Below, piece by piece: positions 27,110-64,000 of a stretch of 64,000 bases of DNA (positions are counted from its first letter, which is position 1; every line of letters begins with the position of its first letter). The position numbers and the translations under genes are program-made. Below the pieces are notes generated by a model. That model did no database searches, was not told the DNA's origin, and saw nothing but the letters and a program-made list of their open reading frames with translations. Source of the stretch: Prevotella sp. (GTDB lineage Bacteria > Bacteroidota > Bacteroidia > Bacteroidales > Bacteroidaceae); NCBI GenBank assembly GCA_017470055.1, contig JAFUFD010000050.1, positions 1 through 64,000 of the forward strand, given 5' to 3'.

Positions 27110-27129
27110 AAAATACTCCTTGCGTGGGA

Positions 27130-27160
27130 TTGTGGGTAAAAGGAAAAATAGGTACTTTTG
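27130..27160 (+). promoter_or_regulatory. Promoter of the sulfite reductase-siroheme operon
   Basis: TTG at 27130-27132, 20 bases, TACTTTTG at 27153-27160, followed by CAACC. The start site would be about 20 bases before the ATG at 27186. The region from the radical SAM start to here is a 250-base divergent control region. Confidence 0.8.
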
Positions 27161-27185
27161 CAACCGCAAACCAACACAAGGACTT

Positions 27186-29513
27186 ATGTACATTATTCCA
27201 GAGAGTCTGACAGCAGACATTCAGTACAATCAACGGCTCATAGAGCAGTTTAGAAAAGGAGAAATCAGTGGTGCGCAGTTGAAGTCGAACCGTGTACCAA
27301 TGGGTATCTACGAACAGAGGCAGGACGGACACTATATGTTGCGTATCCGCTGTACGGGTGGGCTTATTACACCACGACAGTTGCGGCGTGTGGCTGAGGT
27401 TGGCAGACAAGTGAACTGTTCGCATATTCATATTACCACTCGGCAAGAGGTACAGATCCATGATGTGAGCATCGACCGTGCCACTGAGGCGCTTCTTGCG
27501 TTGAAAGAGGAGGGACTGGCAACGCAGGGCGGAGGTGGAAACACCGTGCGTAATATGTTGGTAAATGAGCAGGGTGGTATTAATAGCCGTCAGACGTTCG
27601 ACCCCTATCCCTATGCAATCGGATTGACAACTCGCCTGATAGCCGAGAAAGATTCGTGGTCGATGCCTCGCAAACTGAAGATAGCCTTCGATATCAATGA
27701 GGAGGACGCTAATTTCTCGCTGGTTGCAGACTTAGGGTTGATTCCCGTAATCAAGGACGGTCAGCGTGGCTTCCGAGTGCTTTTAGGCGGTTCGGTGGCA
27801 AGCCATCCACACAAGGGGTGGTTAGTGTTCGATTTTCTGCCAGAGAAAGACCTATTCCGTGCGGCTAAGGCTGCAAAGAACTTCTTCAACTTGAATGGTA
27901 ATAGAAAGAACCGTCACAAGGCGCGCATACGGTACATATTCTATAAGAATGGCGAGGAAGAGACGCGGAGACTTTATCTTGAGGAATACGATAAGTTGAC
28001 CAGTGATAAAGCGTTGGATTTCGAACCTGCAGTTCTTCCATTTGAATATAAGACACCATCATTCGCTCCTGTTGTAGATGAGAGCGAGGCTTTTAGGACA
28101 TGGAAACGTCGCTATGCGCAAAAGCAGAGTGTGGGGAATGGTTTTTGTATTGTTATCCCGTTCTTGCATGGTAACACATCGCCTGACGTTTTTCTTAAGA
28201 TTGCGGAATTCTTGGAAGGATTCGGCAATGATATTATCCGCTTCACACCACGCCAGAGCATGCAGTTGCGCAATATTCCTGAGGAGTATCTGCCTAATGT
28301 CTATCAGTTCTTCCATGGGCTGGGGCTGTCATTGGATGTCCCTGTTATACTCAATAATCTAACCTCCTGTACGGGTGCCGATACCTGCCGCTTGGGTATC
28401 TGCCTGCCAAAAGGACTGGTAAAGGGTATTCGTCGTCAATTGGAGAAGAGTGGGCTGGATCTCGACCAGTTGCCTGATTTGAAAATCAATATCAATGGTT
28501 GTTCCAACTCGTGCGCTCAGAATGCATGGTCGGACTTAGGCTTCAGTGGACGTATTGGTCGTGTAGATGATCATCCATATCCTGCCTATACTGTGTGGGC
28601 ACGTGTGAATGGTAAGACAGAGTTGGCTGAGGCACTGGGCTATCTGGCTGCTAAGGATATCCCGCAGTTCGTTGTAGACTATTTAGGATATTATCTCAAG
28701 GTGAGAGACCAGTACGAGAGTTATGATGCTTTTGTACGTACAGAGGGTGCCGAGGTTGTTAAGAATGCGATTTCCAAGTACAAAGACGTTCCTTCATTCG
28801 ATGAGGACAAGAACTACTATTTCGACTGGGGGGCTGATGAAGTCTTCTCATTGACCAGTCATGGGCAGGCAGAATGTTCGGCAGGTCTGTTCGACATTAT
28901 CGAATTAGATCAGGCTACCATTAAGGAAAAACAGGTCGCATTGACTCAGCCAGGTGCCGATGAGGAAAAACTGTTACGCGACATCGTGTTCTCTGCTTCC
29001 CGTATGTTGCTCGTTACTCGTGGTGCTGATCCTCGAACTGATGACGAGGTCTACAGTAATTTTGAAGAGTTATTTATTGATGCAGGCATCGTCTCTGCTG
29101 ATTTTAAGGTTGTCGTAGAGAAAGCCCGTCATGGAGAGACATTGCTGTCAGACCAGGAACAGATAGAGTCATTGGTTGATAAAGTCAATGAACTCTATGC
29201 CTCAATGGATGATTCTTTGCAGTTCAAGGCTGTAACTCCTGTGGAGCAAAAGAAGGAGAATCAACAAATCACGGAAAGTACGAGTGACGGCGCCAATGTA
29301 AAGAAGGATTTTCGTGGAGTGGCATGCCCCATGAATTTCGTGAAGACAAAGATAGAATTGTCATCCATGCAGAGTGGTCAGTTATTAGAGATTCTGCTTG
29401 ATGATGGTCAGCCCATCCAAAACGTGCCAGGCAGTGTACGTCAAGAAGGACATGAGGTGATCTCTACAGAGAAAGTCGACAATTATTGGAAGGTACTCAT
29501 CAGGAAAAAATAG
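27186..29513 (+). CDS. Sulfite reductase (ferredoxin type) fused to a TusA-like domain
   Basis: 775 residues from the ATG at 27186; a longer in-frame start lies inside the promoter. The first ~560 residues are a siroheme sulfite/nitrite reductase: duplicated ferrodoxin-like halves (GGLITPRQLRRVAEVGRQVN near 53) and the siroheme-4Fe-4S ligands CTGADTC (about 395-401) and CSNSC (about 439-443). A middle helical segment follows, then residues about 706-775 form a TusA/SirA-like domain (RGVACPMNFVKTKIEL) with its reactive Cys. Sulfite rather than nitrite is favoured by the neighbouring cysDNH genes. The TusA-like part may accept or pass on sulfur; this is inference. Confidence 0.9.
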   Translation: MYIIPESLTADIQYNQRLIEQFRKGEISGAQLKSNRVPMGIYEQRQDGHYMLRIRCTGGLITPRQLRRVAEVGRQVNCSHIHITTRQEVQIHDVSIDRATEALLALKEEGLATQGGGGNTVRNMLVNEQGGINSRQTFDPYPYAIGLTTRLIAEKDSWSMPRKLKIAFDINEEDANFSLVADLGLIPVIKDGQRGFRVLLGGSVASHPHKGWLVFDFLPEKDLFRAAKAAKNFFNLNGNRKNRHKARIRYIFYKNGEEETRRLYLEEYDKLTSDKALDFEPAVLPFEYKTPSFAPVVDESEAFRTWKRRYAQKQSVGNGFCIVIPFLHGNTSPDVFLKIAEFLEGFGNDIIRFTPRQSMQLRNIPEEYLPNVYQFFHGLGLSLDVPVILNNLTSCTGADTCRLGICLPKGLVKGIRRQLEKSGLDLDQLPDLKININGCSNSCAQNAWSDLGFSGRIGRVDDHPYPAYTVWARVNGKTELAEALGYLAAKDIPQFVVDYLGYYLKVRDQYESYDAFVRTEGAEVVKNAISKYKDVPSFDEDKNYYFDWGADEVFSLTSHGQAECSAGLFDIIELDQATIKEKQVALTQPGADEEKLLRDIVFSASRMLLVTRGADPRTDDEVYSNFEELFIDAGIVSADFKVVVEKARHGETLLSDQEQIESLVDKVNELYASMDDSLQFKAVTPVEQKKENQQITESTSDGANVKKDFRGVACPMNFVKTKIELSSMQSGQLLEILLDDGQPIQNVPGSVRQEGHEVISTEKVDNYWKVLIRKK

Positions 29514-29969
29514 ATGGACTTCTTACCTATCAACATACGCATCAGTGATGCACGAATTCTGATAGTCGGTGGAGGTCGGGTGGCTACTCATAAAGCAACG
29601 ATACTCAGTCATTTCACTTCAGCGGTCACAGTCATTGCTCCACGAGTGAGTGATGATATTAAGGCTTTGCCGTTCTGCTGGGAAGAACGTGACTTTGCTG
29701 AAACTGATCTGGATGGTGTGACATTGTTGTTTATCTGCACAGGCGACCATACGCTAAATCATCATATCCACTCTTTGGCGCAGCAGCGTGGTGTCTTGAG
29801 CAGTGTCTGTGACTCACCTGCTGAATGTGACTTTACCTCACCAGCCATCTTCCGAGAAGGTGGACTGACTATTGCTGTCGCCTCCGACGCCAAGGACGTG
29901 AGACGTAGCATCCGAGTGCGTGACCGTATAAAGAATCAGATAGAAAATGGAACGCTCTCCGTTGAGTAA
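29514..29969 (+). CDS. Precorrin-2 dehydrogenase / sirohydrochlorin ferrochelatase, short form
   Basis: 151 residues, the NAD-binding half of CysG/Met8 (ARILIVGGGRVATHKATIL, about 14-32). It oxidises precorrin-2 to sirohydrochlorin and may add iron to give siroheme. It ends before the C-terminal helical domain of Met8, so chelatase activity is uncertain. The ATG follows the sulfite reductase stop directly and the 3' end overlaps the next gene by 23 bases, so the three are translationally coupled. The product would serve the siroheme-dependent reductase upstream. Confidence 0.9.
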   Translation: MDFLPINIRISDARILIVGGGRVATHKATILSHFTSAVTVIAPRVSDDIKALPFCWEERDFAETDLDGVTLLFICTGDHTLNHHIHSLAQQRGVLSSVCDSPAECDFTSPAIFREGGLTIAVASDAKDVRRSIRVRDRIKNQIENGTLSVE

Positions 29970-30675
29970 CCTGCATTTGCAGCCAGGAACAGTGACGCTG
30001 GTGGGCTTTGGACCTGGTGCCCCAGACTTGCTAACCATTCGGGGAGAACGAGCCTTGCGTCAAGCCGATATTATTTTCTACGATGACCTGACGAACCTTG
30101 ATTATCTCAATAGTCTTGCAGCCGAGAAAGTATATGTGGGCAAACGTAGTGGTCGTCATCATACCGAACAGGACGAAATCAACGGTCTGCTGCTTGATGC
30201 CGCTGAGCAAGGAAAACGTGTGGTGAGGTTGAAGGGTGGTGACCCTATGATATTCGCTCATGGTGGTGAGGAGATTCGTTATCTGGAGCAGCATAATATC
30301 CCTGTCGATGTGATACCTGGTGTTACTTCCGCCACCGCCTTGGCTGCCAGCACGAAGGTCTCACTCACGCTACGTGGTGTATCGCAGAGTGTCGCCATTG
30401 TCAATGGTCACTCAAGTAATCCTATCGTGCCTGACACCGATACTCTGGTCTACTATATGGGAGGAGCCAGATTGTCTGAGATTCGGCAACGGCTGATTGC
30501 TCAAGGTTGGCGAGAAGATACCCCCGTGCTTGCCGTACACAATGTATCACTGCCTAGTGAGCAGGTGTTTGATACCACCATTGGTCAATTGGGCAATGAA
30601 ACCTATCCTACTCCCGTTATCATACTGGTGGGTGATGTAGCGGCATACCGTCATTATGAAAATCCATATAAATAG
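29947..30675 (+). CDS. cobA: Uroporphyrinogen-III C-methyltransferase
   Basis: 242 residues. It uses two SAM to convert uroporphyrinogen III to precorrin-2. Motifs: VGFGPGAPDLLTIRGERAL (about 19-37), VRLKGGDPMIFAHGGEEI (about 92-109), and VIPGVTSATALAA. It is the C-terminal half of CysG as a separate protein. Together with the preceding gene it forms a complete two-gene siroheme branch. The 3' end overlaps the annotated hemN reading by 20 bases, and a promoter lies just beyond. Confidence 0.95.
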   Translation: MERSPLSNLHLQPGTVTLVGFGPGAPDLLTIRGERALRQADIIFYDDLTNLDYLNSLAAEKVYVGKRSGRHHTEQDEINGLLLDAAEQGKRVVRLKGGDPMIFAHGGEEIRYLEQHNIPVDVIPGVTSATALAASTKVSLTLRGVSQSVAIVNGHSSNPIVPDTDTLVYYMGGARLSEIRQRLIAQGWREDTPVLAVHNVSLPSEQVFDTTIGQLGNETYPTPVIILVGDVAAYRHYENPYK

Positions 30676-32059
30676 GGATTGCCACACTGTATCGGATGCA
30701 GTAATTTTGCAACCAGAAACTAAACCAGATATTCATAATTTGCAACAGTCAGTTACCGAGAAGTACAATATACCTGTACCTCGTTATACCAGTTATCCGC
30801 CGGCAAACTATTTCCGGACGTTCTCGGAAGAGGACTACATGAAGGCTGTCAGCCAGTCAAACAATGGTACAGACCGACATGTGTCGTTCTACTTGCACCT
30901 GCCTTTCTGTCACCATCTGTGCCATTACTGCGCCTGTAACTCTTATTCCATGCGTAGTCCAGAGGTCGTCAGTCAGTATCTCAAGGCCCTGCATCAGGAG
31001 ATAGACTTGCTGCTGCCGCTCATCGTCAGCGACCGTCAGATATCACAGATACATTATGGCGGTGGTAGTCCTACAGCCATAGCCCCAGATGCCATTAGGC
31101 TACTGAATCAGCATTTGCTTAGTGTGCTTGATACTATTGAGCGACCGGAGATAGCCATAGAGTGTCATCCTGGCTATCTCTCACTTACCTCTTGGAAACA
31201 GTTGCTGGAGGCTGGTTTCACAAGGTTCAGTATTGGTGTACAGGATTTTGATACCGATGTGCTTCGTATCGTAAACCGTCGCCCGTCACAAGAGGCATTA
31301 CCTGATATTTTCAGTGTACTGCGTGACGGTGGCGCACGCATCAATCTCGATTTCTTGTATGGGCTACCAGGGCAGACAGCCGACAGTTTCTGCCGAACTA
31401 TTGACTATGCTATCAGTTTGCGCCCTGATAGGTTGGTGACGTTTAGTTATGCTCATGTACCTTGGTTGAAACGCCAGCAGTTGGTCCTTGAGAAAGCAGG
31501 ATTGCCTACTAATGAGGAGAAAGCCCGTATGTTTCTGAAAGCGGAGCAACGGCTGATAGCAGCAGGTTATGTGCGCATCGGTATAGACCATTTCGTACTG
31601 CCTGATGACGAGTTGTATCAGGCGATGTGCAACGGACAGTTGCACCGTAATTTCCAAGGCTACTGCACTCGTCGCACCACGGGGCAGGTGTACGCCTTTG
31701 GTGTAACGGGGATTAGTCAGTTGGAGACAGCCTATGCTCAGAACACCAAAGACATCGATACCTATATTGCTACAGTAAATCGTGGTCATTTGCCTGTAAG
31801 TAAGGGCTATGGCCTGACTATCGAAGAGCAGCAAATCCGGCAAGTGATAGAGCAGTTGATGTGTAACTATCACATGGAATTGCCTGATGACCAGATTAAC
31901 AATCCTCGACTGAAGGAGATGGCTGACGACGGTCTGATTACCCTGCGGGGGAATATGGTGGCGATGACGAAAGAAGGACTACCCTTCGTAAGGAATGTGG
32001 CGGCAGCCATTGACCCTCTGATGCGGAACACCCAGAAATCATTCTCAAAACCAATCTGA
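30656..32059 (+). CDS. hemN: Oxygen-independent coproporphyrinogen III oxidase
   Basis: 467 residues in the longest reading. HLPFCHHLCHYCAC holds the radical SAM Cys85, Cys89 and Cys92 plus the extra Cys94 seen in true HemN, and PRYTSYPP (42-49) is the HemN N-terminal signature. It decarboxylates coproporphyrinogen III without oxygen. The start is in doubt. A promoter lies at 30679-30709, after the ATG at 30656, and no other ATG follows before residue 62. A TTG at 30740 (Leu29) would give a start like E. coli HemN (LQQSVTEKYN). Both forms may be made. Confidence 0.93.
   Translation: MKIHINRDCHTVSDAVILQPETKPDIHNLQQSVTEKYNIPVPRYTSYPPANYFRTFSEEDYMKAVSQSNNGTDRHVSFYLHLPFCHHLCHYCACNSYSMRSPEVVSQYLKALHQEIDLLLPLIVSDRQISQIHYGGGSPTAIAPDAIRLLNQHLLSVLDTIERPEIAIECHPGYLSLTSWKQLLEAGFTRFSIGVQDFDTDVLRIVNRRPSQEALPDIFSVLRDGGARINLDFLYGLPGQTADSFCRTIDYAISLRPDRLVTFSYAHVPWLKRQQLVLEKAGLPTNEEKARMFLKAEQRLIAAGYVRIGIDHFVLPDDELYQAMCNGQLHRNFQGYCTRRTTGQVYAFGVTGISQLETAYAQNTKDIDTYIATVNRGHLPVSKGYGLTIEEQQIRQVIEQLMCNYHMELPDDQINNPRLKEMADDGLITLRGNMVAMTKEGLPFVRNVAAAIDPLMRNTQKSFSKPI
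30675..30709 (+). promoter_or_regulatory. Promoter inside the 5' end of the hemN frame
   Basis: GGGATTGC at 30675-30682 contains TTG (30679-30681); 20 bases later is TAATTTTG (30702-30709), followed by CAACC. The GGGATTGC has the same place relative to the -7 box (27 bases) as the GGTATTGC boxes before hemA-hemC, the porin and pstB. Confidence 0.65.
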
Positions 32060-32103
32060 ATAAGAGTACTACGACATTGCCCACCAACTATAATCAGTAA
32101 GTG

Positions 32104-33120
32104 ATGACCTCCGAATTCCTCAATACCCTCATGGGACACCCAGGCAAACGCCCGCCTATATGGCTGATGCGTCAAGCAGGCAGAGTGCTTCCCCGCTATC
32201 AGTTATTGCGACAGCAACACTCGTTTACGGAGATTATGAACACGCCCGAATTAGCCGCAGAGGTGACGCTGATGCCCGTGGAAGATTTGGGTGTGGATGC
32301 CGCCATCTTATTCAGTGATATTCTCACTATACCTGTCGCCATGGGCATGGAAATAGAGTGGACGGAGTCTGGTCCTCGTTTCCTCCATCCGTTGCATGGT
32401 TTGGAATGCCCTGTCGACAGACTTGACATACGTCCCGAGCGACTGAAGTATGTCTATGAGGTTATTGACCGTGTGGTGGATCAGAGTCATGTGCCGCTTA
32501 TCGGTTTCTGTGGCGCTCCGCTCACTACGATGTGCTACATGCTACAAGGCATCAGCACTAAACAAACTTTTCCTGCTGCCAAGAAATTCTTCTACGAGAA
32601 TCGTGAAGAGACAGAACGGCTAATTGCTGCTGTGACGGAGATATCTATCGACTATGCCCGTCAGCAGATAGAACACGGTATCGATGCCTTCCAACTTTTC
32701 GAGAGCCATGCAGGTCTGTTGCCTTCAGAGATTTACGCAGAGTTGTTCCTGCCCGCCGTGGTTCGTATTGCTGATGCCGTACGGTCAATGGGTATCCCGT
32801 TTATATTCTTTCCCAAAGGGTTGGGTAGTGGCTTGAGGCTCATTACACCAGATGTGTGCGACTTCGTGAGCATAGACTGGCAGACCTCGTTGCTGGAGGC
32901 ACGTCAGATGGTGCATTCTGATGTGGGCATACAGGGCAACCTTGATCCGCATTTACTCTTTGCGCCTCAAGACGAAATAGCCAAGCGGATGGAGTCCTAT
33001 CGGCAATTTTTCCACAATCACCCGCATTGGATAGTGAACTTAGGACATGGTGTATTGGCGAATACACCCTTGGAAAATATCAAATATCTTGTGAATTGGG
33101 TGAAATATACCCAATGGTAG
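32104..33120 (+). CDS. hemE: Uroporphyrinogen decarboxylase
   Basis: 338 residues from the ATG at 32104; a GTG just before it (32101) is possible. RPPIWLMRQAGRVLPRY (18-34) is the family active-site signature, followed by SDILTIPVAMG with the catalytic Asp, and GFCGAPLTTMCYML. It converts uroporphyrinogen III to coproporphyrinogen III, the substrate of HemN just upstream, so it commits the pathway to heme rather than siroheme. There are 44 bases after hemN with no promoter visible. Confidence 0.95.
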   Translation: MTSEFLNTLMGHPGKRPPIWLMRQAGRVLPRYQLLRQQHSFTEIMNTPELAAEVTLMPVEDLGVDAAILFSDILTIPVAMGMEIEWTESGPRFLHPLHGLECPVDRLDIRPERLKYVYEVIDRVVDQSHVPLIGFCGAPLTTMCYMLQGISTKQTFPAAKKFFYENREETERLIAAVTEISIDYARQQIEHGIDAFQLFESHAGLLPSEIYAELFLPAVVRIADAVRSMGIPFIFFPKGLGSGLRLITPDVCDFVSIDWQTSLLEARQMVHSDVGIQGNLDPHLLFAPQDEIAKRMESYRQFFHNHPHWIVNLGHGVLANTPLENIKYLVNWVKYTQW

Positions 33121-33194: not shown

Positions 33195-34724
33195 ATGATA
33201 CAGTATAAGTCGATTAACCACTATAATACGTCGCTCAATGACCGAGAGGACTACTTCAGACAATTCCGTCAAGAAGAGAGAGGACCCTCGGTGTTCTTGC
33301 AGACTTGTAACCGTATAGAGTTATACTATGGCGATGGAGAGATACCTGACGATGTGGCTCGCCATTTATTCCGTGTGACTTGTGGTCTGGAATCGGCAAT
33401 CGTGGGTGAACGTGCCGTACAGGGGCAGGTAAAAGAAGCCTACCTTACGGCTCGAATGCAACAGAAACTGCCCGCAGGACTGCATAAATTATTTGAGTGC
33501 GCTCTGCACATTGGAAAACGTGTGCGCAACGAAACGGAAATCTCGCATGGAGCCGTGAGCCACTCGCTTGCCGCCATTGAGATCATTGAACAGCAAGCCA
33601 TCGACCTGCAGCAAGCCCGCATCGTCATTATCGGCGTAAATACACTGACGGAGGATATTATCAAATTTCTCCAGAACAAAGGAGCCAAGTTAGTGTTCCT
33701 TGCAAACCGCACAGAGGAGAAGGCACGCCGTATGGCAGAGCCTTTTGGAATTGAGGTGTTCCGACTTGCAGACAAACAACATTTTTTGTCGCAGACAGAT
33801 ATTCTGATCTCTGCTACCTCGGCACCCCATCTTATCATAAAAAAAGAGGATCTTTTACCCTGCCGTCGTTTGCTTGCCATTGACCTCGCCTTTCCTCGTG
33901 ACATTGACTCAGCAGTGGCGGAATTGGAGGGAGTGACACTCTACAACGTGCATGACGTGGAGCAGAAGGTGAAAGACAATATCTCCATCCGACAAGACGA
34001 AGTGCTACGTGCGGAGTCGTTGATAGAAGAGGAGATAGCCGAGTTGCACGACATCATGGAGCGGCGAAGAGCGCACACCGTCGGAGGATTAAGAGTTATA
34101 GCCCGTAGTAGCCAGTTGTCGAGAATTCAGGTGGAGGAGGTGATGAGCCGTTTGCCCGACGTGAAGTACTGTATCAATATGATAGAGTCGTTTGGCGACA
34201 GACATTTAGGTATCTCATTGCTCAACGGTGAGGCTCCTGATGATATGTTTACTCGTGAGTTGGACACAGCCCTGCTGACCGACGAAGGAGATGTTGCCAT
34301 CCACTCTGCTAAAGACCTGCCTGAGCAAATGCATCCCGAATTGGAGGTCATCGCACTCTATGAGGCTTTCGACAAGACTGACGCTTTGGTGAGCCGTGGC
34401 CATATCCGATTGCTTGACCTGCCAGCAGGCAGCAGTGTAGGTACCAGTTCACCCTTACGCAGAAAAGAGTTGCTTGCTTTACGACCTGACTTGAGGGTAG
34501 TGGGAATACGAGGCTGTATAGAAGACCGTGTGAGACAAGTGCGCAATGGTATGGTAGATGCCGCCATCGTGGCTACCTGTGCGCTAAAACGACTGGGTAT
34601 GACAGAGGAGATTACGGAAATACTCCCTTTTAGGACTCATCCTATGCAGGGAAGACTTGCCGTAACCGCCCGTAAGGGACGTGATGACCTGAAAGCCATC
34701 TTTAAGAAAGGGAGCATAGTATGA
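33195..34724 (+). CDS. Glutamyl-tRNA reductase fused to a shortened porphobilinogen deaminase
   Basis: 509 residues, one open frame. Residues 1-295 are glutamyl-tRNA reductase (HemA): the catalytic Cys38 (QTCNRIELYY), GQVKEAY, NRTEEKARRMAE. The NADPH glycine loop is altered (IIGVNTLTE in place of GAGET) and the C-terminal dimerisation domain is missing. Residues 298-509 are hydroxymethylbilane synthase (HemC) domains 1 and 2: LRVIARSSQLSRIQ, HSAKDLP with the catalytic Asp374, GTSSPLRR, IRGCIEDR. HemC domain 3, which carries the Cys that holds the dipyrromethane cofactor, is absent. Context (hemD, B, L follow, overlapping) says it serves ALA and uroporphyrinogen synthesis, but either activity may be altered. 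Confidence 0.9.
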   Translation: MIQYKSINHYNTSLNDREDYFRQFRQEERGPSVFLQTCNRIELYYGDGEIPDDVARHLFRVTCGLESAIVGERAVQGQVKEAYLTARMQQKLPAGLHKLFECALHIGKRVRNETEISHGAVSHSLAAIEIIEQQAIDLQQARIVIIGVNTLTEDIIKFLQNKGAKLVFLANRTEEKARRMAEPFGIEVFRLADKQHFLSQTDILISATSAPHLIIKKEDLLPCRRLLAIDLAFPRDIDSAVAELEGVTLYNVHDVEQKVKDNISIRQDEVLRAESLIEEEIAELHDIMERRRAHTVGGLRVIARSSQLSRIQVEEVMSRLPDVKYCINMIESFGDRHLGISLLNGEAPDDMFTRELDTALLTDEGDVAIHSAKDLPEQMHPELEVIALYEAFDKTDALVSRGHIRLLDLPAGSSVGTSSPLRRKELLALRPDLRVVGIRGCIEDRVRQVRNGMVDAAIVATCALKRLGMTEEITEILPFRTHPMQGRLAVTARKGRDDLKAIFKKGSIV

Positions 34725-35335
34725 ATACATTATATATTGGGCTACAGACCCCTAATGCAGACTACATTCACACACCGCTCATAGAGATTGTGCCAGTGAA
34801 GGATGATACCGCTCTCAAAAATGCGGTATTCAATATAGGTGACTACGCTTATGTGCTTTTCACCAGCCGTTATGCGGTAAGATTCTTCTGCCAGTATGGA
34901 CTTCCTGAAGGTGATATACGTGTTGTGTCCATTGGACCTACTACCACGCAGGCTTTGCAAGAGATTGGTGTCCGCAAGGTGACACAGGTGGAGCGTGATG
35001 ATAGTTACGGGGTCATCGACTGGTTCTGCCGACAACCACGTGGGCGAGTACTCATCCCCCGTTCCGATATCGCCCTATCTATCATACCCGATGGGTTGCG
35101 GCAGTTGGGGTTCGACGTGACTACCGTCACCGCTTATAGAAATAGGATGCCCTCCGATGTCAGACGAATAGACCTGAATAGGGTAGACCGTATCGTATTC
35201 ACCTCACCCAGCACCGTTGACAATTTTGTGTATGTGTATGGTAGTTTGCCGCAGGACAAGATTCTGGTGACACGAGGTAGAACTACACAAGAACGACTCA
35301 ATCAATATCTAAAAAATAGAAAGCCGACAAAATGA
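34721..35335 (+). CDS. hemD: Uroporphyrinogen-III synthase
   Basis: 204 residues, shorter than the usual ~250. The family is very divergent. Recognisable pieces are VLFTSRYAVRFF (about 46-57), IGPTTTQALQEIGV (71-84) and IVFTSPSTVDNF (about 160-171), in the two-domain arrangement of HemD. It closes hydroxymethylbilane to uroporphyrinogen III with ring-D inversion. The ATG overlaps the HemA-HemC stop (ATGA), so the two are coupled. No HemC domain-3 remnant is found in it. Confidence 0.85.
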   Translation: MNTLYIGLQTPNADYIHTPLIEIVPVKDDTALKNAVFNIGDYAYVLFTSRYAVRFFCQYGLPEGDIRVVSIGPTTTQALQEIGVRKVTQVERDDSYGVIDWFCRQPRGRVLIPRSDIALSIIPDGLRQLGFDVTTVTAYRNRMPSDVRRIDLNRVDRIVFTSPSTVDNFVYVYGSLPQDKILVTRGRTTQERLNQYLKNRKPTK

Positions 35336-36345
35336 AAAGATTCAGAACATTCAGAAAGGACCAGGTCACACGGGATAAGTATGCCGATGTAACCGTTAAC
35401 GCTCAGGATTTCATTTACCCGTATTTTGTGGTAGAGGGAGAGGGCGTCGTAGAGCCAATACCTACGATGCCTGGTATTAATCGTTATAGTATAGACACGC
35501 TTGTCCAGGATGTGCAGGAGATTAAGAGACTGGGCATTGACAAGGTGTTGCTCTTTGGTGTGGTGGAAGATGACGTGAAAGACGAGCGTGGCTCGGCAGC
35601 CTATGCCGAGGATGCCCTTATTTGCCGTGCCGTGAAGGCGATTAAGCAGGCTGTACCAGATGTGATTGTCATCACTGATGTCTGTCTGTGCGAGTATACG
35701 AGTCATGGGCATTGCGGTCTGTTGGTCACACGGACAGAGCCTGCAGTGGAGGGTGGTGTTATTCAGAAGATTATCGATGTGGATAACGATACCACCCTTC
35801 CGCTACTTGCAGAGATGGCATATGTACATGCCAAGGCAGGTGCCGACTTTGTGGCGCCCTCGGCTATGATGGATGGACAAATAGAGGCATTGGACAAGAG
35901 ACTGCGTGAGGGTGGTCTGCGTGGGCAAACGAAGATCCTGGCTTATTCGGCAAAATATGCTTCTGCCTTTTATGGTCCATTCCGTGACGCCGCTGACTCT
36001 GCTCCGTCGTTTGGTGACCGCAAGACCTATCAGATGGACTATCGTACTCACAATCAGGGATTGGAGGAGATTGCTGCTGATCTGGAGGAAGGTGCCGACT
36101 GGACGATGGTGAAACCAGCACTGCCCTATCTTGACATGATAGCACGTGCTGTGGAGCGTTTCCCTCAGGTGCCAATGGTGGCTTATCAGGTCAGTGGTGA
36201 GTACTCCATGCTGAAGGCTGCCGCTCAGGCGGGATATCTGGACGAGCAGCGTGTGGCCTATGAGAGTCTGATTGCCATCAAGCGTGCAGGAGCGCAATAT
36301 ATCATCACGTATTATGCCAAAGAATATCAACAGCGATGGGCATGA
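35332..36345 (+). CDS. hemB: Delta-aminolevulinic acid dehydratase
   Basis: 337 residues. It joins two ALA to porphobilinogen. Zinc ligands Cys118, Cys120 and Cys128 (DVCLCEYTSHGHCG) mark the zinc-dependent type. Schiff-base lysines are Lys208 (YSAKYASAFYGPFRDA) and Lys261 (MVKPALPYLD). The ATG overlaps the hemD stop (ATGA) and its 3' end overlaps hemL by 10 bases. Confidence 0.97.
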   Translation: MKRFRTFRKDQVTRDKYADVTVNAQDFIYPYFVVEGEGVVEPIPTMPGINRYSIDTLVQDVQEIKRLGIDKVLLFGVVEDDVKDERGSAAYAEDALICRAVKAIKQAVPDVIVITDVCLCEYTSHGHCGLLVTRTEPAVEGGVIQKIIDVDNDTTLPLLAEMAYVHAKAGADFVAPSAMMDGQIEALDKRLREGGLRGQTKILAYSAKYASAFYGPFRDAADSAPSFGDRKTYQMDYRTHNQGLEEIAADLEEGADWTMVKPALPYLDMIARAVERFPQVPMVAYQVSGEYSMLKAAAQAGYLDEQRVAYESLIAIKRAGAQYIITYYAKEYQQRWA

Positions 36346-37616
36346 AACAGAGAATATTATCTGCAGCAGCCTTTGAACGGGCACAACAAGTCATCCCTGG
36401 CGGAGTCAACAGCCCAGTCCGGGCTTTACGCAGTGTGGGGACTACACCCCTCTTTATTGAGCGTGCTAATCGTGCCTATGTGACAGACATTGATGGCAAC
36501 ACGTTCATCGACTTCTGTATGTCGTGGGGCGTTTTCATCTTAGGACACAATAATCCTGCCGTCAGCCGACGGGCTATAGAGGCTGTTCAACGTGGTAGCA
36601 GTTATGGCATACCTACCGAAGTTGAGACCTTGCTGGCAGAACGTGTGCGTGAGGCCTTTCCGTCCATGGAGCGACTGCGTTTTGTCAATAGTGGAACCGA
36701 GGCTACGATGTCAGCCATCCGTGTGGCTCGGGGCTTTACGGGACGTGACACATTGGTAAAGTTCGAAGGCAACTATCATGGTCATGCCGACCATCTGCTG
36801 GTAAGTGCGGGATCTGGAGTGGCTAACATCAGTACAGCCTCCAGTGCGGGTGTTCCGGATGACTTCACGAAACATACGGTATGCCTTCCTTATAATAATG
36901 TAGAGGTGTTGGAGCAGTATTTCCGTGAGCATGGTGACCATGTGGCTGCTGTCATTCTGGAGCCTGTGGCGTGTAATATGGGCGTAGTGGTTCCGTCACT
37001 TGATTTCCTGCGTGCCACACGCCAACTGACTACCCAATACGGTGCTATACTCATCTTCGACGAGGTGATTACAGGCTTCCGTCTTGCCCTTGGAGGAGCC
37101 CAAGAGCGCTTTGGCATTAGTCCAGATATGACTGCTGTCGGTAAGATTGTGGGCGGTGGGTTCCCTGCTGCTGCCTTTGGAGGACGTGCAGACATCATGG
37201 CACAATTGGCTCCTGATGGTCCTGTCTATCAGGCAGGGACGCTCAGTGGAAATCCTGTGGCGATGGCGGCAGGTTTGGAGACACTCCATCAACTGACCTT
37301 CTCAGGTTTTTATGAGAAACTGGAAGAGCGTAGCAATCGGTTCATCACAGAACTAAAAGGCATTGTCCAAGGTAAGGGGATTCAGTTGAATCATTGTGGT
37401 TCGATGTTTACCCTGTTCTTCAATGATGCTCCTGTGTGCAATTTCGCCGATGCCCTTCGTAGCGACAAAGAGCGTTTTGCCCACTACTTCCGCCGTATGT
37501 TGGAACATGGTATCTATGTCTCACCTTCCCAGTTTGAGGGTAACTTTATTTCTGAATGTCATACAGATGACATCCTGGACTACGTATTGAAATCTATTAA
37601 AGAAAGTTTAGAATAA
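36336..37616 (+). CDS. hemL: Glutamate-1-semialdehyde 2,1-aminomutase
   Basis: 426 residues, PLP enzyme that makes ALA from the product of the HemA domain. VPGGVNSPVRAL-type start (IPGGVNSPVRAL, 21-32), GNYHGHADHLL (148-158), FDEVITGFRLALGGAQ with the PLP Asp, and VGKIVGGGFPAAAFGGR with the PLP Lys are all present. Two in-frame ATGs (36336 and 36342) are possible starts; both lie in the hemB overlap. The hem genes here thus form a complete C5 route from glutamyl-tRNA to uroporphyrinogen III. Confidence 0.97.
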   Translation: MGMKQRILSAAAFERAQQVIPGGVNSPVRALRSVGTTPLFIERANRAYVTDIDGNTFIDFCMSWGVFILGHNNPAVSRRAIEAVQRGSSYGIPTEVETLLAERVREAFPSMERLRFVNSGTEATMSAIRVARGFTGRDTLVKFEGNYHGHADHLLVSAGSGVANISTASSAGVPDDFTKHTVCLPYNNVEVLEQYFREHGDHVAAVILEPVACNMGVVVPSLDFLRATRQLTTQYGAILIFDEVITGFRLALGGAQERFGISPDMTAVGKIVGGGFPAAAFGGRADIMAQLAPDGPVYQAGTLSGNPVAMAAGLETLHQLTFSGFYEKLEERSNRFITELKGIVQGKGIQLNHCGSMFTLFFNDAPVCNFADALRSDKERFAHYFRRMLEHGIYVSPSQFEGNFISECHTDDILDYVLKSIKESLE

Positions 37617-38516
37617 ATGAGCAACATCACCCATTTGAAAGAATTAGAATCGGAGAGCATATATGTACTCCGTGAGGTGGCCGCGCAGTTTGAACGCCCC
37701 GTCATTCTCTTTTCTGGTGGCAAGGACTCGATAGTCATTGTCCATCTTGCCTACAAGGCATTCTATCCTGCAAAGATTCCCTTCCCCCTGTTGCATATTG
37801 ATACAGGGCACAACTTCCAGGAGACGCTTGACTATCGTGACGCATTGGTCAATAAACTCGGTGCCGAGTTGATTGTTGGTTCCGTACAGGAAAGTATTGA
37901 TACCGGACGAGTAAAGGAGGAAACCGGCTATTACGCCTCTCGCAATAAACTCCAGACAACGACGCTGCTTGACACTATTGAGAAATACCATTTCGATGCG
38001 GCTATTGGAGGTGCTCGTCGCGATGAGGAGAAAGCGCGTGCTAAGGAACGCTTCTTCAGTCATCGGGATGAGTTCGGACAGTGGAATCCCAAGAATCAGC
38101 GTCCAGAACTCTGGAATATATTCAACGGTCGTAAAGCGATGGGAGAGCATTTCCGTGTATTCCCGATCTCCAATTGGACGGAGATGGATGTATGGCAGTA
38201 TATCTTGCATGAGCAGATAGAAATGCCCAGTCTCTATTTTACCCATGAACGTCAGGTGTTCGAACGTGATGGTCAGTGGCTGGCTGCCGAGCCTTGTATT
38301 AAGTTGAAACCTACGGAGCAAGTGGTCACCAAACAGGTACGCTGTCGTACTATCGGCGACATCACCTGTACAGGGTTGACACTCTCTACTGCCCACTCCT
38401 TAGAGGACATTATTGAGGAAATTGCCGCCACCCGTGTCACAGAACGTGGTGGGCGTGCCGATGACAAACGCAGTGAGACATCAATGGAAGACCGCAAGAA
38501 AGCAGGGTATTTTTAA
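37617..38516 (+). CDS. cysD: Sulfate adenylyltransferase subunit 2
   Basis: 299 residues, ATP sulfurylase small subunit of the ATP pyrophosphatase fold: PP-loop LFSGGKDSIVIVH (31-43), GGARRDEEKARAKER and WTEMDVWQYI. With CysN it activates sulfate to APS. It starts on the base after the hemL stop, which places sulfate assimilation and tetrapyrrole synthesis in one operon. The spacer to cysN (30 bases) is made of TTCATA repeats. Confidence 0.97.
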   Translation: MSNITHLKELESESIYVLREVAAQFERPVILFSGGKDSIVIVHLAYKAFYPAKIPFPLLHIDTGHNFQETLDYRDALVNKLGAELIVGSVQESIDTGRVKEETGYYASRNKLQTTTLLDTIEKYHFDAAIGGARRDEEKARAKERFFSHRDEFGQWNPKNQRPELWNIFNGRKAMGEHFRVFPISNWTEMDVWQYILHEQIEMPSLYFTHERQVFERDGQWLAAEPCIKLKPTEQVVTKQVRCRTIGDITCTGLTLSTAHSLEDIIEEIAATRVTERGGRADDKRSETSMEDRKKAGYF

Positions 38517-38546
38517 TTCATAGTTCATAATTCATATTTCATAGTT

Positions 38547-39875
38547 ATGGCAATAGAAAGAGGTTATTTAGATATGCAGTTGCTGCGCTTTTCGACGGCG
38601 GGCAGCGTAGATGACGGCAAGTCGACACTCATTGGACGACTGCTGTACGACTCTAAGTCAATATTTGAAGACCAGTTGGAGGCGGTGGAGACCGCTTCGA
38701 AATCACGTGGCAACGAGGAGGTGAATCTTGCATTGCTGACCGATGGTCTACGGGCTGAGCGCGAACAAGGCATCACCATCGATGTGGCTTATCGTTATTT
38801 TGCTACCCCCAAGCGAAAGTTCATCATTGCCGATACACCAGGACACATACAGTACACACGCAACATGGTGACGGGTGCTTCGACAGCCGACTTGAGCATT
38901 ATATTGGTTGATGCGCGTCATGGTGTACTGGAGCAGACCGTACGCCATTCCTATATATCATCGCTGCTTGGCATTCCCCATATTGTCGTTGCGGTGAACA
39001 AGATGGATCTTGTGGATTTCTCTGAAGAAGTATTCAACAAGATTGTTGCTGATTATCAGCGGATGGCTCAGACGCTTCATATCCAGAACGTCACTTTCAT
39101 ACCTATCTCAGCAAAGAATGGTGATAACGTAGTAAACCGCTCAGAGCATATGCCTTGGTATACAGGCGTTCCATTGTTAGAGTTCTTGGAAACCGTGCCA
39201 GTCAGCAAATCAGCGTCGAATGTCGAGACCGATATCCAGCGTGCTTTTCGTTTCCCTGTGCAATACGTCATCCGCCCCATCAGTAGTCGCTTCCCCGACT
39301 TCCGAGGCTATGCTGGTCGTGTTGCCAGTGGCATCATCCGTATTGGCGACCGTGTGAAGGTCTTGCCCAGTGGGATGGAGTCTGTCGTGACCCATATCAC
39401 ACAGGCAACTGCGGAACTCACTGAGGCGACACCGCCCCAGAGTGTCACTTTGCAACTTGCCGATGACATAGACATCTCACGTGGTAACCTTCTTGTAAAG
39501 ATTGACGAGCCTCAGCCCCATCAGGAACAAGATATTCGCCTTGATGTCTGCTGGTTTAACGAACAGCCACTGTTACCCCGCTCGAAGTATATTGTACGAC
39601 AGACAACCAGCGAGACTCTCGCCATCGTTCGGACTATCAATTTCCGCCGTAACATCAATACTTTAGAGAAGGAGCCTGGCGTGTCACAACTGAAGATGAA
39701 CGACATTGCGGAGATCAGCATCCATACGGCGCAGCCCCTCACTTTTGACGACTATCGTCTGAACCGCATCACAGGCAGCGTTATATTCATTGACCCAGAC
39801 ACCAACGAGACAGTAGGTGCTGGTATGATTAAAACAGAGACAATATGGAACGAACACAACTCATACGTGATCTGA
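38547..39875 (+). CDS. cysN: Sulfate adenylyltransferase subunit 1 (GTPase)
   Basis: 442 residues. EF-Tu-like GTPase: Walker A GSVDDGKSTLIGRL (15-28), switch ADTPGHIQYTRNM, and NKMDLVDF. It drives APS formation by CysD. There is no fused APS kinase (CysC) domain, and no cysC elsewhere in the cluster, in agreement with a pathway that reduces APS directly. The 3' end overlaps cysH by 31 bases. Confidence 0.97.
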   Translation: MAIERGYLDMQLLRFSTAGSVDDGKSTLIGRLLYDSKSIFEDQLEAVETASKSRGNEEVNLALLTDGLRAEREQGITIDVAYRYFATPKRKFIIADTPGHIQYTRNMVTGASTADLSIILVDARHGVLEQTVRHSYISSLLGIPHIVVAVNKMDLVDFSEEVFNKIVADYQRMAQTLHIQNVTFIPISAKNGDNVVNRSEHMPWYTGVPLLEFLETVPVSKSASNVETDIQRAFRFPVQYVIRPISSRFPDFRGYAGRVASGIIRIGDRVKVLPSGMESVVTHITQATAELTEATPPQSVTLQLADDIDISRGNLLVKIDEPQPHQEQDIRLDVCWFNEQPLLPRSKYIVRQTTSETLAIVRTINFRRNINTLEKEPGVSQLKMNDIAEISIHTAQPLTFDDYRLNRITGSVIFIDPDTNETVGAGMIKTETIWNEHNSYVI

Positions 39876-40555
39876 ACGAGCGTTTCCGCGATGCGTCCGC
39901 CCAGGAGGTTGTCGGCTATTTCCTTCAGGTATATTCAGGACGCATCGCCCTTTCCTCTTCCCTCTCTATCGAGGATCAGACCTTGACTGACATCATTGTC
40001 CGCCAAGATAAGAAAGCCCGTATTTTTACCCTCGACACAGGTCGTCTTTTCCCTGAGACCTATCAACTCATCGATAAGACCAACCTGACCTATGGTATAC
40101 AGATTGAGGTGTTCTTCCCTGACTATCGAGAGGTGCAGCGCATGGTGCGCGAAGAGGGCATCAATCTCTTTTACAATAGTATAGAGAGTCGCCATCGCTG
40201 CTGTCAGATTCGCAAGATAGAACCACTCAACCGTGCCTTTCAGGGACTCGATGTCTGGATTTGTGGTCTGCGTCGTGAGCAGAGCGTCACTCGACAGGAT
40301 ATGCAAGTCGTGGAATGGGACGAGATGCACCAACTTATTAAGGTGAACCCTCTCATCTCATGGACCGAGCAGCAGGTGTGGGACTATATCCGCCAGCATC
40401 ATGTGCCCTATAACAAACTGCACGACAAGAATTATCCCAGTATCGGCTGTGAACCTTGCACCCGTGCCGTCCAGCCTGGAGAGGATGTCCGTGCTGGTCG
40501 CTGGTGGTGGGAGTCACCTGACCACCGTGAATGTGGACTGCATCAGCGACACTGA
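39845..40555 (+). CDS. cysH: Assimilatory adenylylsulfate (APS) reductase
   Basis: 236 residues. It reduces APS to sulfite. The paired Cys119-Cys120 (RHRCCQIRK) and Cys202/Cys205 (GCEPCTR) make the 4Fe-4S site that separates APS reductases from PAPS reductases; the catalytic ECGLH is at the C-terminus (229-233). Its product is the substrate of the sulfite reductase at the start of the cluster. The last gene of the hemA-hemC-to-cysH operon, followed by a hairpin. Confidence 0.95.
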   Translation: MERTQLIRDLNERFRDASAQEVVGYFLQVYSGRIALSSSLSIEDQTLTDIIVRQDKKARIFTLDTGRLFPETYQLIDKTNLTYGIQIEVFFPDYREVQRMVREEGINLFYNSIESRHRCCQIRKIEPLNRAFQGLDVWICGLRREQSVTRQDMQVVEWDEMHQLIKVNPLISWTEQQVWDYIRQHHVPYNKLHDKNYPSIGCEPCTRAVQPGEDVRAGRWWWESPDHRECGLHQRH

Positions 40556-60688: not shown

Positions 60689-62197
60689 TTAACAAAATAT
60701 TCGACAACATAAATCCTCAAAATTCATTCTTTCATCTTTATCCCTAAACTGTTTCATCTCTTTATCTAGAAGTTTCTCCTCTTTATTGAATTTGATATAA
60801 ACAACATCTTTACAAGAAAAATTTACCACTGCTTTATTGTCCACAACTGCAACATGATATGCTGCGGGTATATCTTTTAGTTTTTGTGCTATTCTTGAGA
60901 CATCAGTGGCTATTCGCCCTTTTCCATCATACAAATCTCCTTCGGCATTTTCTTTTACCATTGTATATATGGAAGCAAATACCTTTTCAACATCCGTCTT
61001 AAATGTGGTTTTTCTTTTTGTGGCCCGATTAACTGGGACCCCCTTTTTGTATGTTGTAAATATAAGCACCAAAAGATATAGACACATTTGCTTATTACTC
61101 AATGAGAATGTCATTGTTCGTCTTTCATCAAAAACAAATTGAACCTTCTTGTTTCCATAAGAGAAATCAAAAAGAACTTTTGTCAATTTTTCTGTGTTTA
61201 AGACATGAGACATGACAAAATTCAAAAATGTTCTATCAAAACCATGCAGCCTAAAGGGGCGACCGTGCAGTTTTCTTTCAGGGATGTGTAAATCCAACGT
61301 ATATTCCTGATATTTGTTTAAAGCTTTTCTAAGCGTGTTTGATATTGATTCTTCAATTGGAATTAAAATGAAATTTGATTTCTTCCTCGGTTTGTCTTCT
61401 GCTACTACCGAAGTGCTTATTTTCATTAAAAACGATGGGATAAGATTTGTATATAACTTGGCTTTATCAGAAAACAAATCTTTAGCAAAATCTTTTGTGG
61501 CAATATTATCTATATTATCTACTATTTTCTGTGCATCTTGATCCTCATATTTGTGGAACGGGCTAACATAGCGCATTAAAGACTTAAGTTTACGTTGCTC
61601 TCGCTTTTCTTTAAGATAAGAACATACTTTTGGAATATAAATTAAACGCATACCAAAAAGTTCAAGTTGTGATTTGTATTCTCCATAATGTTCTTGCATT
61701 TCTTCATATATCTTATAGTTTTCATTATTGTTTTCTAAATATATTATTTCCGACCTTGCAAATCTGTATTCGTTTTTTTTTATAGAAAAAACAATAGCGT
61801 TACTGTTTAGAGCGTATTCTATTGCTAAGAGAAGCCAAGCCTCACTTAGTGAACAGTGACCTTCGATTGTAGTATAACTCTTATTCTTTTCTACAATTCT
61901 TCCAACGCCAGATATAAGTTTCAACTCTTCTATCAAACATTTTACTTCATTTTTATTATCCCAATTCTGTAGTATCTGTAAAGCATCACAGAAGGTTATT
62001 CTGTTCACTTCAAAACCTCTTTCTGGATTACTTAGCCCATACTTGTCGTTAAGTAAACCATCCATTATATTTAACTCTCTATCACTAACATAACCGTCAG
62101 CGCCTACGATATCAAATATTAGTCTTGCTGCTGCGATACAAAATTCTTTTTTCATTTTTAATAATTCATTTAAGATATAGCGAATTGTTACAGTCAT
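60689..62197 (-). CDS. TerB-like N-terminal domain protein, partner of a dynamin-like GTPase
   Basis: 502 residues. Residues about 15-135 resemble the TerB tellurite-resistance/DnaJ-associated helical domain (EFCIAAARLIFDIVGADGYVSD, EAWLLLAIEYAL). The rest is unrecognised: a basic, mixed alpha/beta region with HGRPFRLHGFDRTFLNFVM and several Lys-rich loops. The ATG at 62197 overlaps the GTPase stop (ATGA), so the two are made together. A second ATG (62155) is possible. AT-rich compared with the core genes, which suggests transfer. Confidence 0.7.
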   Translation of the reverse strand: MTVTIRYILNELLKMKKEFCIAAARLIFDIVGADGYVSDRELNIMDGLLNDKYGLSNPERGFEVNRITFCDALQILQNWDNKNEVKCLIEELKLISGVGRIVEKNKSYTTIEGHCSLSEAWLLLAIEYALNSNAIVFSIKKNEYRFARSEIIYLENNNENYKIYEEMQEHYGEYKSQLELFGMRLIYIPKVCSYLKEKREQRKLKSLMRYVSPFHKYEDQDAQKIVDNIDNIATKDFAKDLFSDKAKLYTNLIPSFLMKISTSVVAEDKPRKKSNFILIPIEESISNTLRKALNKYQEYTLDLHIPERKLHGRPFRLHGFDRTFLNFVMSHVLNTEKLTKVLFDFSYGNKKVQFVFDERRTMTFSLSNKQMCLYLLVLIFTTYKKGVPVNRATKRKTTFKTDVEKVFASIYTMVKENAEGDLYDGKGRIATDVSRIAQKLKDIPAAYHVAVVDNKAVVNFSCKDVVYIKFNKEEKLLDKEMKQFRDKDERMNFEDLCCRIFC

Positions 62198-64000
62198 TCA
62201 TTATCCGCTTTTTCTGCTCGTGAGCTATTCAACATATCTGTTACTTTATGGAAATAGGACAACTCTTTTTTCTGTTGACTCCTTAGTAATGCATTTTGGT
62301 TCTCAAATGTTTTTATTTGCTGCATAAGATCTTTTACCAATTTTACATTTGTTGCTGTAGCTTTTGTGTTACACTTATCTAAATATTGTTTAACGCAAGC
62401 ATAAAATTGACTCACCAAATTTCTTAATGGCTTTTCAACAGATTTTAAAGATTCTGCTTTTGCTGCATTAAACATTCTAATGCGTCTATTTCTGTTTGAC
62501 ACCCATGTTGATTCTGTCGCAGCAATAGCTACTGCTCTATATGTGGAATATACAACTTCATTTTGAGTTACCGAGAGACAAATGTCACAATCAAAGCAGG
62601 CTTCTTTGTCAAAAAATATATTAAAATCATTTTCGGCAACAAATACCTTTATTGATTCTTGTATTTGAGATTCCACATTATATATAATTGGATATAATTT
62701 ATCTTTCAAATACTGAATAGTAAGGTTTACAAATGGGGAAAGAGACTCGAGCCTTGCATATCGATAGTCCGTCATGGATTTGAATACATTCAACTTTAAC
62801 GACAATATGTCTTTTTCTAAGGCAAGGTAATCTCCTACGCCAAACGAAACCTGATTGACAAGGGCTTTTTTTAGTTTTTCTTCCCAATCAGCATTCACGC
62901 TTTGGGAGAAATCATTATACAAATTATTAGAAAAACTATATATCTCATTGTAAAGTTTCTCAAACATTAGGTTTATTGAAGCTATAATGTCTTGGTTTGC
63001 CTTTATGTTTTTATTTGTTTCTATGATCTTCAAAGAAATAACATTAATAAGGTTGTCAAATTCAGATTTTCTAACAGCCATCATTTCTGATAGTTGCAAT
63101 TGACTTTTCTGTAGTTGTTTATTAATAGCTTCCTTTCGTGAAGCATCAGCATTTGCATTTACATGTTTACAGACATCATTCATTATTTGAATGAACCCAC
63201 TACGCTCTTGATAGTTTATGCCTTCATGATATTCTTCATAATCTGTGAAGCCATTTGCAAATTCTTGGTAAAGCGATGAAACTTGGAAAATTCTTTTTGA
63301 TGAAAATTCTTTTGCGCAATTAGCTTTATTTAGGATGTCATCCATTTTTAATTTAACAAATTGCAACACTTTGTCTCTTTCATTCTTCTTTACAAGGTCA
63401 ATACGATTTATACACAAGAAAAAATCATCATTATCTGGACAAAGATAAGTAGATATAAATTCTTCGTCTTTATCTGAAAGGCCTCGCTCTCCACATATAT
63501 AAATGATAGCAATAGAATCCCTAATTGACGCAATGGTTTTTTCGTTATCCCTTTCATGAGCCGATAATCCTAATGTGTCAACAATGCATAAATTATTCTC
63601 TTTTAGGAATTCCGACTTAACATACATTACAGCATCAACAACATTCCTAAATCTCCGAATGTCTCCAATATCCATCCTCTCGTGGAAATCATCGAGATTA
63701 AAAGCAGAAAATGCCATAAATGCGTCATACGTCATTTCTTCCTCACTACCATCATTATACCTTATTATAACCTTTGGCTTATTCCCATACTTTATTTTTG
63801 TGATTATAGCTGTTGTTGGATTAGCAGAGACAGGCAATATCCTATCCCCTAAAATCGCATTTACAAAAGTGCTCTTGCCAACAGTAAAGTCACCTATCAC
63901 ACCTATTGTAAATTCTTTATTATTTGCAGCTGTGTAAACTTGATGTATATTCTCCGCAATTTCTGTGACAGCTTTTTGATATTGGTCAGAAAACGATTGT
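62194..64000 (-). CDS. Dynamin-like GTPase, 5' end beyond the window
   Basis: At least 602 codons; no stop or convincing start is found before the window edge, and the frame runs on with QYQKAVTEIAENIHQV upstream of the P-loop, so the gene starts outside. G1 GDFTVGKSTF, G2 Thr in NPTTAIIT, G3 DTLGLS, G4 NRID. After the G domain come long helical, coiled-coil stretches (KSQLQLSEMMAVRKSEFDN and on). No membrane segment. Bacterial dynamin-like proteins remodel membranes; some are linked to phage defence or toxin vesicles. Overlaps the TerB-like gene downstream. Confidence 0.82.
   Translation of the reverse strand, partial: QSFSDQYQKAVTEIAENIHQVYTAANNKEFTIGVIGDFTVGKSTFVNAILGDRILPVSANPTTAIITKIKYGNKPKVIIRYNDGSEEEMTYDAFMAFSAFNLDDFHERMDIGDIRRFRNVVDAVMYVKSEFLKENNLCIVDTLGLSAHERDNEKTIASIRDSIAIIYICGERGLSDKDEEFISTYLCPDNDDFFLCINRIDLVKKNERDKVLQFVKLKMDDILNKANCAKEFSSKRIFQVSSLYQEFANGFTDYEEYHEGINYQERSGFIQIMNDVCKHVNANADASRKEAINKQLQKSQLQLSEMMAVRKSEFDNLINVISLKIIETNKNIKANQDIIASINLMFEKLYNEIYSFSNNLYNDFSQSVNADWEEKLKKALVNQVSFGVGDYLALEKDILSLKLNVFKSMTDYRYARLESLSPFVNLTIQYLKDKLYPIIYNVESQIQESIKVFVAENDFNIFFDKEACFDCDICLSVTQNEVVYSTYRAVAIAATESTWVSNRNRRIRMFNAAKAESLKSVEKPLRNLVSQFYACVKQYLDKCNTKATATNVKLVKDLMQQIKTFENQNALLRSQQKKELSYFHKVTDMLNSSRAEKADNE

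Follow-up and report, generated by a model that had tools for sequence, protein, structure and literature searches.

Growth of the pyrrole chain has been ascribed largely to movement of the cofactor cysteine, and the dipyrromethane cofactor, bound to one cysteine, is described as unique to tetrapyrrole biosynthesis in the accessible text of PMC7242693 and PMC8561815. In E. coli HemC this residue is Cys242, in domain 3. The window analysed here, a stretch of 64,000 nucleotides from Prevotella sp., encodes a HemA-HemC fusion whose deaminase part ends after domain 2, and the question it raises is how such a deaminase could work without the domain carrying the cofactor. On balance we favour, from the comparisons reported below, a working and minimised pair of tetrapyrrole enzymes, in which the primer or the chain of the deaminase would be anchored most likely on Cys462.

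A HemA-HemC Fusion Without the Last Domain of Either Enzyme

The gene and its relevant parts are as follows:

33195..34724, + strand: hemA-hemC fusion frame, 509 aa, with a stop codon overlapping the start of hemD
33195..34082, + strand: HemA part, residues 1–296 (Pfam; 1gpj alignment; column counts)
34083..34721, + strand: HemC part, residues 297–509, domains 1 and 2 only (Pfam PF01379, TIGR00212)
34455..34457, + strand: codon of Leu421, at the E. coli Arg131 position (alignment)
34515..34517, + strand: codon of Cys441, at the E. coli Asn151 position (alignment)
34578..34580, + strand: codon of Cys462, at the E. coli Ala172 position, the proposed cofactor anchor (alignment)

A Pfam search of the 509 aa protein found GlutR_N, Shikimate_DH and Porphobil_deam (PF01379), the last one at residues 299–499 and over model positions 1–205 of 207, and matched neither the HemA dimerisation domain (PF00745) nor domain 3 of HemC (PF03900). 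The longer models end early as well: TIGR01035 (hemA) stops at position 365 of 416 and TIGR00212 (hemC) covers positions 1–213 of 293, and the profile of the short HemC forms was aligned to residues 5–206 of E. coli HemC (1ah5). The protein is a glutamyl-tRNA reductase without dimerisation domain followed by a HemC of domains 1 and 2 only, as the preliminary description of this locus had proposed; its statements that the NADPH loop reads GVNTLT (HemA residues 147–152) and that cysteines 326, 441 and 462 are the only ones of the deaminase part also held on the translation. A second hemA or hemC was looked for in the same genome, an assembly of 125 contigs, 95.25% complete and with 6.84% contamination, and the fusion was the single match for either gene.

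The Double Truncation Marks a Group of Fused and Unfused Genes

To see how far the short form extends, related loci and genomes were compared. A single hemA-hemC frame of about 510 aa was found in 17 of 23 loci, and others carry split genes with HemC parts of 221–230 aa (split forms are L003 of genome G030, L036, L038 and L041). The deaminase end point is the same in the 17 fused loci, and the HemC parts of the split genes end there too. The frame of the nearest named relative (L019), from an independent assembly, is 97% identical to the fusion of the window, and that of L021 (NZ_JHUW01000006, Prevotella sp. MA2016, which we take to be a cultured isolate) is 74% identical.

Within the genus, hemC was matched in 24 of the 398 genomes sampled, with 27 matches in total, 26 of which end at TIGR00212 positions 162–222 of 293; the match ending at 162 is a broken gene of G382, and that of G277 reaches 268. 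By size, 12 of these 27 frames correspond to the hemA-hemC fusion (509–523 aa), 12 run on into further sequence or are cut (287–715 aa), 2 stand alone (221 and 242 aa) and 1, the 859 aa frame of G277, reaches domain 3. In the broken gene of G382 (L065) the hemC frame passes abruptly into hemL-like sequence, which indicates a chimeric assembly or a deletion. Two short hemC matches each were observed in G095, G135 and G223 (contamination 5, 7 and 3%), and in the first two genomes one match has the length of the hemA-hemC fusion and the second continues in the direction of CobA.

In the sample of the order, 69 of 393 genomes matched the short-form profile, and the 30 best loci included 11 short forms, counting the window's own and one cut at a contig end. 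Two of these 11 come from small genomes of 99% completeness, G1130 (L119; 1.0 Mb) and G880 (L118; 1.2 Mb), which have kept a HemC-CobA-HemD protein; no hemA match was obtained in either, and the precursor may be obtained from elsewhere. In the phylum sample hemC was present in 319 of 395 genomes, and five genomes had best E-values weaker than 1e-60 among the matches listed, on which this survey rests (second matches exist in G485, G701, G759 and G807): the window's own, G571, G713, G432 and G540. The matches of G432 and G540 are partial. G571 and G713 were dropped as examples lacking domain 3; their HemC-HemD proteins (512–515 aa), like the HemC-CobA-HemD protein of G277, are fused tetrapyrrole enzymes of the same phylum whose CobA and HemD parts were named by reading and not by family scan, and which, unlike the HemC of the window, read with a domain-3-like segment containing a cysteine. 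PF03900 was over the cut-off in G277 only, and not in G571 or G713.

Larger proteins also occur among the forms lacking domain 3, namely five HemC-CobA-HemD proteins that were scanned and one HemA-HemC-CobA-HemD protein of 981 aa (L122:526-3468, + strand), in which GlutR_N, Shikimate_DH, Porphobil_deam, TP_methylase and HEM4 lie in a single chain. In all 6 larger fusions scanned, the CobA match begins 13–20 residues past the end of PF01379, therefore leaving no space for domain 3. The HemA truncation accompanies that of HemC: TIGR01035 ends at position 333–366 of 416 in 13/13 domain-3-less genomes tested that have hemA, and at 414–416 in 3/3 ordinary genomes. Since other fusions and split forms exist, the constant feature is the double truncation and not the fusion. 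Thus, what had been described as a peculiarity of one HemA-HemC fusion is real but not a one-off, and marks a group with both fused and unfused members.

A maximum-likelihood tree was built from 98 HemC rows, with midpoint rooting and with a warning of long branches from the program; in it the 45 domain-3-less rows, the window's own among them, fall on one side of one branch (support 100/99, length 1.61). The 53 ordinary rows all come from genomes of the Bacteroidota sample, 19 of them from one family, and other phyla entered the comparison as PDB chains only; L065 (chimeric or broken), L124 (at a contig end), L144 (the G277 protein again) and identical duplicates were left out of both the tree and the 45/53 counts. 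Several families are represented within the domain-3-less group, with branches of their own for f92 and f118, which makes transfer or differential loss likely. Moreover, in 12 pairs of fused genes dN/dS was 0.028–0.214 for the hemC part and 0.014–0.151 for the hemA part, and the hemC part is under purifying selection.

The Deaminase Part Keeps Its Catalytic Residues and Has Probably Lost the Classical Cofactor Seat

The residues of the 45 short and 53 ordinary HemC rows were counted in one alignment, using the E. coli numbering. R11, S13, Q19, K83, D84, S129, R132, R155, R176, Q198 and G199 are kept in 45/45 short forms and R149 in 44/45; the window equivalents are Asp374 (D84), Lys373 (K83), Arg304, Arg422, Arg439, Arg445 and Arg466 (R11, R132, R149, R155 and R176) and Gln485 (Q198). 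The HemC part of the window shares with the ordinary enzyme (TIGR00212; E. coli 1ah5) domains 1 and 2, with the catalytic Asp84, the Lys and the five arginines that line the cleft. This conservation suggests that PBG condensation remains.

On the other hand, domain 3 and the dipyrromethane cysteine Cys242 of E. coli are absent from the short forms, and the residues around the cofactor have changed. Arg131 is Arg in 53/53 ordinary rows and in 0/45 short forms (Leu 29, Met 5, Gln 5, Lys 2, others). It has been reported for E. coli HemC, in the accessible text of PMC3945110, that R131L and R132L both lose cofactor binding; of these two required residues only R132 is kept. With Cys242 and R131 lost, the classical cofactor seat would be gone. 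Asn151, found in 53/53 ordinary rows, is replaced in 42/45 short forms (Cys 30, Thr 12) and kept in 3, and in the flexible loop most short forms have other residues in place of K55 and K59; in the ordinary rows, too, K59 is Lys in just 32/53.

At the Ala172 position the short forms have Cys in 45/45 and the ordinary rows Ala in 52, Thr in 1 and Cys in none. This residue, Cys462 in the window, is the only cysteine common to all the 45 short forms; since these rows share ancestry, its invariance does not amount to 45 events. A near-complete switch between the two groups was observed in 8 columns, 462 and 332, 350, 354, 357, 372, 463 and 482, among which the residue following Cys462 passes from Gly (51/53) to Ala (44/45), and residue 482, at the hinge position A195 of E. 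coli, is His in 45/45 short forms vs Ala in 53/53 ordinary rows. According to the accessible text of PMC3945110, V171 and A172 touch the chain when it has four to six pyrroles and N151 when it has five, and in the E. coli simulation as given there Ala172 is not among the residues contacting the bare dipyrromethane but contacts longer chains only; therefore, several substitutions fall on the route followed by the cofactor and the growing chain.

The preliminary description had pointed to Cys441 as the residue of the cofactor region, but Thr or Asn occupies this position in 15 of the 45 group members, and such variation weakens it as an anchor. Cys326 was rejected, as it is not conserved. Being the sole thiol found in all 45 and lying in a loop of the cleft wall, Cys462 is the residue most readily proposed as a new anchor.

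The HemA Part

The HemA part scored 232.9 bits against TIGR01035, over the cut-off of 209.55, and residues 79–330 of 1gpj were aligned to residues 52–296 of the fusion. In common with ordinary HemA (TIGR01035; M. kandleri 1gpj) it has the catalytic Cys of TCNR (Cys38), the GE motif and NRT, and it differs in lacking the dimerisation domain and in having the loop GVNxLT instead of GxGxxG/A. In the 35 truncated HemA rows aligned, T, C and R of TCNR are found in 35/35 and N in 34/35, and residues 147, 148, 149, 151 and 152 (G, V, N, L and T) are invariant; in the 14 ordinary rows G is present at 147 and 149 and G/A at 152. The Rossmann loop is G-V-N-x-L-T in 35/35 near-group rows and GSNKVN, GAHKLN, GVNKIN or GINKMN in more distant short forms, so that the altered loop is a feature of the lineage.

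PF00745 gave no match in the window's own genome at E values up to 1, and it was over the cut-off in 1 of 10 genomes tested (G277); in G369 a match below the cut-off (20.7 of 22.9 bits) lies elsewhere in the genome. Judging by its length, the dimerisation region is also missing from NF001909 (PRK00676), a short glutamyl-tRNA reductase model of 338 positions that is presumably chlamydial; the window protein scored only 84.5 bits against it, well below the cut-off of 478.

Gene Neighbourhood and Pathway End Product

The fusion is part of a run of genes on one strand:

27120..29513, + strand: sulfite reductase with C-terminal TusA domain (Pfam)
29514..30675, + strand: precorrin-2 dehydrogenase (CysG N-terminal type) and cobA, siroheme branch (Pfam/NCBIfam)
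30656..33120, + strand: hemN and hemE (Pfam/NCBIfam)
34721..37616, + strand: hemD, hemB and hemL (Pfam/NCBIfam)
37617..40555, + strand: sulfate assimilation genes of cysD, cysN and cysH types (Pfam)

The order is sulfite reductase-TusA, precorrin-2 dehydrogenase, cobA, hemN, hemE, hemA-hemC, hemD, hemB, hemL and the cysD/cysN/cysH types, and it is the same in L019. The sulfite reductase, which from its family we assume to be a siroheme user, also contains a TusA sulfurtransferase domain at residues 730–796. We read the run as an operon making siroheme for its own sulfite reductase; since this enzyme needs siroheme, hydroxymethylbilane is needed too. Downstream of the fusion, hemD, hemB and hemL are found in 17/17 fused loci. 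In L032 the hemA-C-D-B-L block lies beside siroheme and sulfite genes of opposite direction, with neither hemE nor hemN within the fetched stretch, and in other relatives the block follows hemN and hemE.

The claim that all other pathway genes are intact stands up to uroporphyrinogen III and for the siroheme branch of the window; it does not extend to ferrochelatase (PF00762), for which no match was obtained in the window's own genome, though the window carries hemE and hemN. PF00762 was matched in 2 of the 23 genomes tested and unmatched in 21, the own one included. Because of this missing match, the pathway may end in a product other than haem itself.

Elsewhere in the window, a frame of 502 aa at 60689–62197 on the - strand had no Pfam match at 1e-6; it adjoins a dynamin-family GTPase at 62194–63900.

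A Possible Mechanism and Its Alternatives

The most specific form of our proposal, to which we give somewhat less than an even chance, is that the cofactor has moved to Cys462 in domain 2, giving a two-domain deaminase without the moving loop of domain 3, and that this loss went together with that of the HemA dimerisation domain. Domain 3 and Cys242 would have been lost, most simply once, in an ancestor of the group, and the dipyrromethane primer, or the growing chain itself, would be attached through a thioether to Cys462, which is expected to sit in the domain-2 loop of the cleft wall that contacts the elongating chain in the E. coli enzyme. Arg131, Asn151, Lys55 and Lys59, which formerly contacted the cofactor, would then have been free to change. 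The HemA part would make glutamate-1-semialdehyde without its dimerisation domain, and the product would feed siroheme synthesis for the sulfite reductase encoded in this run and, probably, the formation of later haem intermediates as well. Domain content, conservation, position in the tree, selection and gene order are shown by the sequences; the activity of the pair and the attachment at Cys462 are what we infer from them.

An alternative that we regard as rather unlikely, but worth serious consideration, is that nothing anchors the chain covalently: the reaction would be primed by a di- or tetrapyrrole held non-covalently, such as the enzyme's own product, and Cys462 would be merely structural in a rebuilt pocket. 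A useful comparison is NF002202 (PRK01066), a short hydroxymethylbilane synthase model of 241 positions that by length also ends about the end of domain 2, and which is presumably the chlamydial enzyme. The HemC part of the window covers its positions 20–227, with scores of 152.9 bits for the whole protein and 155.8 for the HemC part that, being below the cut-off of 251, do not make it a member. When single-residue variants were scored, this profile preferred Ala at 462 (158.5 bits vs 155.8 for Cys), and also Thr at 441 and Arg at 421, where the window has Cys and Leu, respectively; Cys placed at ten further cleft positions gained at most 0.9 bit. Since the model does not favour Cys, the chlamydial parallel was rejected as support for a relocated cysteine and it speaks rather for non-covalent priming; should the members of NF002202 be active despite having no cysteine in the cleft, anchoring on a cysteine would not be obligatory. 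The absence in every short form of Arg131, required for cofactor binding in E. coli, and the seven other columns that switched about as completely as 462 point in the same direction. Against this, no other cysteine is present in 45/45 short forms and none of the 53 ordinary rows has Cys there, and the change of Gly to Ala at the adjacent residue 463 looks as if the loop had been rebuilt.

It is improbable, in our opinion, that the HemC part is no longer a deaminase but a decaying or regulatory remnant, with hydroxymethylbilane coming from elsewhere or not being made. Two observations could raise such a suspicion. The short forms have lost both the cofactor domain and Arg131, an arginine whose replacement by Leu inactivates the E. 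coli enzyme, and 374 of the 398 genomes sampled in the genus gave no hemC match. Many of these genomes are incomplete, but a match was lacking also in 165 of the 175 good ones. However, the purifying selection acting on the hemC part, the conservation of the catalytic residues, the adjoining hemD, hemB and hemL in every fused locus, the retention of a short HemC in the two small genomes mentioned above and the failure to find any other HemC in the window's own genome all argue for function. The earlier suggestion that the fusion is probably used was, in this respect, supported.

A separate and very divergent protein might instead provide domain 3 and its cysteine in trans, which seems to us very improbable. 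PF03900 remains below its cut-off even in G571 and G713, despite their domain-3-like segments, so that a domain 3 may be present without being matched. Nevertheless, a separate domain-3 protein was looked for in the window's own genome and PF03900 was never over the cut-off (best E 0.137), nor was it in 22 further genomes of the genus with short hemC, including the single-contig G369, and the CobA domains that follow PF01379 so closely in the larger fusions speak against it as well. Finally, removal of domain 3 by a sequencing or assembly artefact, such as a misread frame end or a frameshift, was rejected as having a negligible probability, because, even if the window comes from a fragmented and partly contaminated assembly and the gene of one relative (L065) is chimeric or broken, the HemC end is identical in independent assemblies, the short form is found also in the single contig of G369, and the hemC stop overlaps the start of hemD in the ATGA at 34721–34724.

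Conclusions

In searches of the open-licence PMC literature, some of which had other aims (titles and abstracts; subscription papers are mostly outside it), we found neither a HemC lacking domain 3 nor a HemA-HemC fusion; the accessible text of PMC7907807, PMC3899948 and PMC8516057 contributed nothing decisive. What is new here, at the level of sequence, is the combination of a Cys462 invariant in the short forms, the loss of Arg131 and the maintenance of the catalytic residues. In some rumen bacteria and related ones, the backbone of haem-type pigments appears to be made by an enzyme devoid of its cofactor domain. The loss of domain 3, together with the kept residues of catalysis and one invariant cleft cysteine, would represent a natural experiment on two questions, how the enzyme stops at four pyrroles and how it keeps hold of the chain, and the short deaminase, of about 213 residues, offers a testable system. 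Moreover, genome surveys that look for domain 3, or that require HemA and HemC to score over their full length, may misjudge these bacteria as incapable of making siroheme or haem.
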